A DNA stretch of 64,000 nucleotides from Candidatus Hodarchaeota archaeon (lineage in GTDB: Archaea > Asgardarchaeota > Heimdallarchaeia > Hodarchaeales > Hodarchaeaceae): assembly GCA_016840035.1 (NCBI GenBank), contig JAEOTC010000030.1:1-64000 (forward strand), given 5' to 3'. The first letter of the stretch is position 1. Each line of letters begins with the position of its first letter. This document shows, in pieces, positions 1 through 33,244 of this stretch. The translations under genes and the position numbers were made by a program. Under the pieces are notes generated by a model. The model was not told where the DNA came from. It did no database searches and saw nothing but the letters and a program-made list of their open reading frames with translations.

Positions 1-145
1 GAAAGTTAAGTCAGGCTCCGTTCTGATCTGTACTGTTGTGCTCGCGCCTACGGGAAAATCAGAAAGCTGAAGGTTCTTCGGCCAAAGGGCCTGAGTCACA
101 CCCGGTCTCATTCCGAACCCGGAAACAGTATCCCCTGGTGAAATA
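1..145 (+). rRNA. rrf: 5S ribosomal RNA, apparently circularly permuted (3' half before 5' half; 5' boundary may lie upstream of the window)
   Basis: nt 1-65 match the 5S 3' half (GUUAAG...GUACUG...ACGGGAA). nt 76-125 match the 5S 5' half (GGCCAAAG...UCACACCCGGUCUCAUUCCGAACCCGGAA). Helices found: I 66-72/76-82, II 87-94/11-18, III 102-105/119-122, V 21-27/58-64. T-rich tract at 167-183. Confidence 0.8.
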
Positions 146-24600: not shown

Positions 24601-24705
24601 AGCTGCTGGTGGGACTTGAACCCACGGCCAACAGATAACTCGGAAAAATCATAATTGAAGAGGAATCTTACGAGTCTGTCGCTCTACCAACTAAGCCACA
24701 GCAGC
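24601..24705 (-). tRNA. tRNA-Thr(CGT), intron-containing
   Basis: Acceptor GCTGCTG/CAGCAGC, anticodon stem ACAGA/TCTGT, loop CTCGTA|~32 nt intron|A, T-loop GGTTCAAGT. Confidence 0.85.
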
Positions 24706-32612: not shown

Positions 32613-33244
32613 CAGATTTCCTCCTCCTCAATGTTATTAGACGGAGAAAACTCATCTTTAAATTCATATTCTAGGTTATTATACTCTAGCTCTAATTGAG
32701 AAGCTTGGTAGTATGTGACATCTCCCAACCTATCAATAACAGATAAAAGTAACTTTTTTCTATCAATCTTTGCCTGTTTTACAATTTGATCAAGCAAATC
32801 GAGATCAACGTCCTCACCTTCAGGAAGCGGATAAATCACGGTTTTACTTACAGATTCTCCAGGTTTACCCCCTCTTGAGTATATTCTGAACGGAGCAGTT
32901 ATTCGAGTGCCAATACTTACCACATATCCTCGATTGCGTAAATCTTTGTAAACTAAATATCGACTCCAAAATTTAGGGTTGAGTTTTGTGAAATGAACCA
33001 CTAGTTCATCTGTGGAAAGAGTTTCTCCCGTTTTTTCTGTTTCTAATACAATCCTCCCTCTATCTAAAAGTAATAATATTTCCTCAGGTTCTAAATATAA
33101 TGTCTCCTCTGAACTCCAACGGCCAAAATACCCATTTTCAAAAATTTCAGTAGCTAGTGGTTTGTTTAATTGTAGCTGAGACATGGACAGACTAAAAGGT
33201 ATAGATGGTGGAGATTCATCTTTGGATGATGGTTCTATTGTCAT
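32612..33244 (-). CDS. endA: tRNA-intron endonuclease family subunit (catalytic His apparently absent)
   Basis: 'YLVYKDLRNRGYVVSIGTRITAPFRIYSRGGKPGESVSKTVIYPLPE...DRKKLLLSVIDRLGDVTYYQ'. Confidence 0.85.
   Translation of the reverse strand: MTIEPSSKDESPPSIPFSLSMSQLQLNKPLATEIFENGYFGRWSSEETLYLEPEEILLLLDRGRIVLETEKTGETLSTDELVVHFTKLNPKFWSRYLVYKDLRNRGYVVSIGTRITAPFRIYSRGGKPGESVSKTVIYPLPEGEDVDLDLLDQIVKQAKIDRKKLLLSVIDRLGDVTYYQASQLELEYNNLEYEFKDEFSPSNNIEEEEI

Follow-up and report, generated by a model that had tools for sequence, protein, structure and literature searches.

The 5S rRNA gene of the archaeon studied here is almost certainly circularly permuted. Within a 64,000-nucleotide stretch of Candidatus Hodarchaeota DNA (assembly GCA_016840035.1, contig JAEOTC010000030.1, positions 1 to 64,000; hereafter ‘the window’), the two halves of this RNA are encoded in swapped order, such that the 3' half is followed by a hairpin-capped helix I and then by the 5' half, and the gene is opened at the two-A bulge of helix III. 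We consider it probable that the transcript of this gene is cut at a bulge-helix-bulge (BHB) motif and ligated, and that the resulting circular 5S rRNA functions in the 50S ribosomal subunit.

Layout and structure of the permuted gene

A preliminary description of the window had placed a permuted 5S rRNA gene with fused native ends at positions 1-145. The gene is indeed present, and structure, covariation and relatives agree that it is genuine, although its limits are better set at 5-124. The reversed order of the halves reads as had been proposed, each half being matched by Rfam, and the pairings of helices I, II and V and the GUU cap are seen in the sequence at the positions given here.

5-124, + strand: circularly permuted 5S rRNA unit (120 nt as a predicted circle), identified by a 126-bit match to model R1, covariation in six helices and the fold of the spliced order
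5-72, + strand: 5S 3' half (RF00001 match to model positions 48-120, 23 bits), containing the helix III inner strand, the helix II 3' strand (11-18), helix V (21-27/58-64), helix IV (34-38 and 40-41 with 46-52) and the helix I 3' strand (66-72)
73-75, + strand: GUU loop that caps helix I and joins the native 3' and 5' ends, from the sequence and from helix I pairing in homologues
76-124, + strand: 5S 5' half (RF00001 match to model positions 1-54, 27 bits, on contig C28), containing the helix I 5' strand (76-82), helix II (87-94), the outer part of helix III (102-105/119-122) and loop C (106-118)
167-183, + strand: T-rich tract, terminator-like in sequence

The inner strand of helix III is the GU at 5-6 (pairs 5-101 and 6-100), and the permutation opens the RNA in the AA bulge of this helix, between A124 and G5. 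The outer part of helix III is intact, as had been stated, but the new ends lie within the helix rather than just after it. When the unit is rotated at the GUU loop, it reads 5'-CUUCGGCCAAAGGGCCUGAGUCACACCCGGUCUCAUUCCGAACCCGGAA|GUUAAGUCAGGCUCC...GCUGAAGGUU-3', and the minimum-energy fold of positions 5-124 in rotated, spliced order is the textbook 5S structure with helices I to V. As a 5S structure demands, the loops are conserved in sequence and all six helix segments are kept in the permuted order.

A search of the genome with RF00001 recovered the two halves separately and produced no end-to-end match over the cut-off, as expected because the gene is permuted. Since this model detects halves only, the window gene is invisible at the RF00001 cut-off. 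A covariance model of the permuted order (R1) scores the unit at 126 bits with an E-value of 3.5e-31, which is a rough figure from a home-made model built from sequences that include the window unit itself. In an alignment of 19 permuted units (35 pairs in six helices, giving 658 pair cells), standard pairs occupy 94.5% of the cells, compared with 71% in shuffled and 31-52% in slid versions. Both sides have changed in 26 of the 35 pairs, and the covariation score is 0.683, whereas shuffles reach 0.234 and slid versions no more than 0.224. Helix I is 100% paired in the 19 homologues even though both sides have changed in four of its seven pairs, and covariation is seen in all variable helices. 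Because the R1 score is accompanied by a proportion of standard pairs well above that of the shuffled and slid controls, the permuted-order structure is not due to chance. Together, these features leave very little doubt that positions 5-124 constitute a functional permuted 5S gene.

An apparent permutation could also be an artefact or relic, produced either by mis-assembly or by a truncated tandem copy lying beside a normal 5S gene. Two facts would suit such an origin: the window begins at a contig end, its position 1 being base 1 of contig C112 (genome G000), and the last 127 bases of contig C28 from the same genome are identical to window positions 1-127, an exact overlap as in de Bruijn assemblies at a branch. 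However, C28 supplies the sequence that precedes the window (...CCUGUGAGAUAUUGCC|GAAAGUUAAG), and no 5S 5' half was found 5' of the unit in this leader or in relatives. A tandem 5S cut by the contig end was rejected on these grounds, as C28 and relatives show a leader upstream and not a 5' half. Moreover, dozens of independent assemblies from many species share the layout, with the permuted gene internal to contigs and present in single-contig genomes (G005, G006, G010 and G025), and compensatory change preserves its helices. The preliminary description had raised an upstream 5' half, a canonical 5S elsewhere in the genome and a mis-assembly junction as possible objections, none of which was borne out, and we give an artefact practically no credence.

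Contigs break at the permuted 5S in G032 (C77, C90, C106 and C132) as well as in G000 (C28 and C112), which suggests that several near-identical copies exist per genome. The complete Ca. Heimdallarchaeum endolithica PR6 genome (CP084167.1; G025; 3,326,783 bases) carries two permuted copies according to the R1 search. One locus (L012; G013:C510:3678-3949) is a tandem pair of permuted 5S genes in which helix II differs on both sides, and the leader/trailer stems, each longer than 10 bp, also differ between the copies.

Distribution among Asgard archaea

Model R1 was run on the class (60 genomes) and on the phylum (231 genomes). The same rotation is found in 57 of the 60 genomes of class Heimdallarchaeia, including representatives of 14/14 genera and 9/9 high-quality genomes, and thus relatives bear out the original proposal. 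Across the phylum R1 matches 145 of 231 genomes, or about 133 after 12 weak matches are dropped. These weak matches fall in families with a canonical 5S (f11, f18, f26 and f28), and in the two genomes compared (G219 and G226) the weak match overlaps the canonical gene. Canonical 5S genes occur in 61 genomes belonging only to families f11, f18, f26, f27 and f28, a count that leaves out contaminant contigs and pieces of permuted genes. Family f18 includes a single contig of 6,035,313 bases that is presumably Lokiarchaeum ossiferum, and the permuted family f25 includes a single contig of 1,418,269 bases that we take to be Odinarchaeum LCB_4. Absences in the phylum searches are soft, given that only the best candidates per genome were scored, and the three hit-less class members may be incomplete, as may other genomes that gave no match.

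No canonical 5S was found in the window genome by the RF00001 search, and the permuted unit is the only 5S candidate in genomes that retain uL5 and uL18. The locus in the window is therefore, with hardly any reservation, the 5S rRNA gene of the host cell. Genome and phylum searches likewise led us to reject a canonical 5S elsewhere in the permuted families. Hits over the cut-off in G004, G056, G113 and G137 reside on contigs that look bacterial, plastid-like or other-archaeal from their encoded proteins, as judged by eye. RF00001 hits in G013, G025, G032, G045, G050, G081, G097, G174, G176 and G177 overlap or directly adjoin the permuted gene; the G085 and G102 hits correspond to other permuted kinds (described below). 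A pattern search over 85,462 species genomes for a 5S 5' half followed by GAAA (canonical GAAG) matched 24 stretches, all titled Heimdallarchaeota, Heimdallarchaeum, Hodarchaeota, Asgard or ‘archaeon’, and including the complete Ca. Heimdallarchaeum endolithica PR6 genome (CP084167.1).

A 5S rRNA could not be predicted in the complete Heimdallarchaeum genomes (Wu et al. 2022, PMC8813620). The permuted gene supplies this missing RNA and explains why standard models miss it, and permuted-order models would correct the annotation of more than 100 genomes.

A putative splicing motif in leader and trailer, and predicted maturation

The leader and trailer of the window unit pair as a BHB (GAUAUUG-CCGA-AAG with CCGG-AAA-CAGUAUC). 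Motifs of this type are substrates of the tRNA splicing endonuclease. The features that bear on processing are as follows.

On contig C28: leader stem GATATTG of the predicted BHB
1-5, + strand: 5' side of the predicted BHB, comprising the last two bases of central helix CCGA (its CC lies on C28) and bulge A3-A4-G5
119-132, + strand: 3' side of the predicted BHB, comprising central helix CCGG (119-122), bulge A123-A124-A125 and trailer stem CAGTATC (126-132)
24601-24705, - strand: tRNA, probably Thr(CGU), with an apparent intron of ~32 nt after the anticodon (found with Rfam, missed by ARAGORN)
32711-32971, - strand: tRNA splicing endonuclease (EndA) subunit, PF01974
Contig position 64004-64258, - strand: second EndA paralogue, just outside the window on the same contig

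The predicted cuts fall between positions 4 and 5 and between 124 and 125. Leader and trailer pair in relatives too, where the unit follows ...CCGGAA, CCGAAA, CGUGAAA, CGGGAAA or a similar sequence. Examples are GGUAGUAUCG-CGUG-AAA with CACG-GAA-CGAUACUACC (L148), ACCGCCGUGA-CCGU-AAG with GCGG-AAA-UCACGGCGGU (L024) and GCUCUUAGAA-CGAG-AAA with CUCG-AUU-UUCUAAGAGC (L098). A strict scan, which required three or more of the four central pairs, 3-nt bulges on both sides and an outer helix of five or more contiguous pairs, was passed by 52 of 73 units, or by 51 if the window leader is not completed from C28. Among controls, it was passed by 90 of 4760 between-family leader/trailer swaps and by 81 of 3650 shuffled leaders. 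The central helices are of 17 different kinds, with compensatory changes across families, and therefore the leader, which lies outside the mature RNA, tracks changes in the exon. The possibility that the leader CCGG is a mere copy of helix III was rejected, as exon ends that are not palindromic also have a complementary leader (CAGG:CCUG, CCGU:GCGG and CGUG:CACG).

The 4-bp central helix, 3-nt bulges and outer helix that define a BHB are thus present, in relaxed form in f3 and a few others. The f3 units carry an extra conserved leader hairpin, with CCUAGUAAGGU:ACCUUACUAGG as an example of their outer stems. The strict scan fails in f6, f15 and one f20 unit. An A-C mismatch forms the fourth central pair in several f1 genomes, including that of the window, and helix III competes with part of the BHB central helix.

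If each bulge is cut behind its second base and the products are joined, most families yield CGGAA|GUUAAG or CGGA|AGUUAAG, both of which match the canonical sequence. The predicted junctions are CATTCCGAACCCGGAA|GTTAAGTCAGGCTCCG in the window species, CATTCCGAACCTGAA|AGTTAAGCCTGCC in H. endolithica and TTTCGATCACGGA|AGTTAAGCTTCCG in the Odinarchaeum-like L148; in f5 the predicted joint is CGAU|AGUUAAG and not CGGAA|GUUAAG.

The proteins expected for a BHB-processed circular RNA are encoded as well. The two EndA paralogues are consistent with a two-subunit enzyme, and the window genome also encodes RtcB, uL18 and uL5. The apparent intron of the tRNA at 24601-24705 indicates that other splicing substrates lie in the same window. 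Many families have TATA-like boxes ~46-52 nt before the unit; in f1 they lie ~86-89 nt before it. On the downstream side, 66 of 73 homologues show a T-run. Both kinds of motif are AT-rich and were counted without controls. Because of these flanking elements, the permuted 5S gene looks like an independent transcription unit.

In the maturation pathway that we infer, the permuted 5S would be transcribed alone as a precursor consisting of leader, 3' half, capped helix I, 5' half and trailer, and the leader and trailer would fold with the CCGG end of the 5' half into the BHB. The tRNA splicing endonuclease would very probably cut this precursor after the second base in each 3-nt bulge. RtcB would then, with somewhat less assurance, be expected to ligate ...CCCGGAA to GUUAAG..., thereby restoring canonical helix III and creating a covalently closed circular 5S. 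This circle would probably be retained as the mature RNA and enter the 50S subunit with uL5 and uL18, while the hairpin loop on helix I stands in for the native 5S ends.

The preliminary description had favoured a mature 5S that remains opened near helix III. Such an RNA would stay linear, with the leader/trailer stem serving for processing only, and would be cut but left unligated, with a nick at the helix III bulge. This bulge is exposed and tolerates inserts on the ribosome (PMC7812874), and permuted mitochondrial 5S RNAs, similar in kind, are on record (cited in PMC11528492 and PMC10085705). However, two 3-nt bulges and a covarying 4-bp centre exceed the needs of a trimming stem, BHB splicing exactly restores the canonical junction, and RtcB is encoded in the genome. 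We therefore regard a nicked RNA as unlikely. A closed circle with intact helix III appears likelier than a 5S open at this helix, because the BHB products would join to the exact canonical sequence. Such a circle would lack the usual helix I ends, but its L5/L18 surface would be ordinary.

The RNA might also be circularized and then reopened in the helix I loop to yield a linear 5S with conventional ends, just as permuted tRNA transcripts circularize before cleavage recovers their standard form (PMC10085705). The cap loops argue against this route, as they are short, frequently resemble tetraloops on a long helix I, and differ in sequence, with no common cleavage signal visible. We judge reopening to be improbable, about as much so as a nicked RNA, and favour retention of the circle.

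Other breakpoints and known systems

Two further kinds of permuted 5S were encountered. In G085 (f17, L154; G085:C63:7382-7821, - strand), the RNA is opened in the 5' strand of loop B. Pairing by eye gives a BHB that runs from ...CCGA-AAA|CACCCGAACCCGUCCCG... to ...GGCACAUCGG-AA|A, with a 10-bp outer stem CGCCGGGGAA:UUCUCUGGCG. In six f19 genomes (L179-L184, in G127, G125, G121, G128, G102 and G122), the opening is in loop C. Here the BHB, also paired by eye, runs from GCG-CUGG-AA|C-CAUCCGAACCCGG... to ...ACCCGG-UC|A-CGC, and splicing would restore canonical loop C (GGUCCCAUCC). A model of the loop-B order (R2) served only to find the loop-C genes, since it also matches the part shared with the first kind and is thus non-discriminating for genes of the second. 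The existence of three breakpoints, each with its own BHB, argues that the BHB is functional and that the permutation originated, or moved, at least twice. Loop C and the helix III bulge, which are natural breakpoints in Asgard 5S, also tolerate breaks or inserts in other settings (PMC7283268, PMC7812874).

With slightly less confidence than for the window itself, we propose that most Asgard archaea, including the order proposed to be closest to eukaryotes, carry a ribosomal circular 5S made by tRNA-type splicing, with at least three breakpoints that arose or shifted on more than one occasion. If so, these would to our knowledge be the first cytosolic ribosomes found to contain a natural circular 5S. 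The permuted layout shows that a universal RNA has had its ends moved, apparently repeatedly, with tRNA splicing as the likely enabling machinery. Eukaryotic 5S rRNA is linear, and the permutation offers a rare gene-order character for the lineages nearest eukaryotes. A literature search that lacked most subscription papers and bioRxiv preprints returned no earlier report of a permuted or circular archaeal 5S.

The closest known mechanism is that of the permuted SRP RNA of Thermoproteus tenax (Plagens et al. 2015, PMC4731332), another archaeal structural RNA with a leader/trailer BHB, whose ends are processed by the tRNA splicing endonuclease and whose ligation restores a functional loop at the cost of the native ends. 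That arrangement concerns SRP RNA rather than 5S and two Thermoproteus species rather than most of a phylum, and its circle was demonstrated by RNA-seq and northern blot, whereas the Asgard 5S circle is predicted. Permuted mitochondrial 5S RNAs (mtPerm-5S; Valach et al. 2014) also have their native ends fused at helix I while the new ends lie at another site, but they belong to organelle ribosomes and are cited for brown algae (PMC11528492). The mtPerm-5S model (RF02547) gave no match up to an E-value of 1 in seven permuted Asgard loci. Permuted tRNA genes likewise place the 3' half before the 5' half and produce a circularized transcript, although this circle is recut to the standard linear form (PMC10085705). 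Archaeal 16S and 23S rRNAs, and the permuted 23S of P. furiosus (PMC7758197), are cut by an EndA-type enzyme at a BHB and ligated, but the 16S and 23S genes are in normal order; a 2026 Genome Biology study reports circularization of archaeal 16S and 23S and not of 5S (PMC12918454). An engineered permuted E. coli 5S with joined ends works in the ribosome (PMC7283268), albeit as an artificial construct fused into 23S. Expansion segments at the helix III bulge (PMC7812874) differ from the Asgard permutation in that they are inserts in a linear 5S.

Several permuted units carry additional sequence. An added hairpin is inserted in loop C in L185-L194, L136 and L157 (f19); the hairpins of L185-L194 are BHB-like, and if removed as a second intron would leave a product that exceeds the canonical length by two A. 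Inserts also occur in the helix I cap (L133) and in helix IV (L134 and L135). An interruption of ~32 nt, possibly another intron, splits the helix III 5' strand in the 5' half of L138 (G163:C277). Finally, in L151 (8100-8560 of G056:C117), and also in L019, the helix III bulge of a normally ordered 5S holds a BHB-like insert of 23 nt (CGGAA[CAGUCUAUCGAGACUGCGUGAAA]GUUAAA in L151), whose removal leaves the canonical sequence. A fused gene for an RNA polymerase subunit lies on the L151 contig, which appears to be contamination from a different archaeon. Its insert is a possible 5S intron, and might serve as a model for how permutation began.
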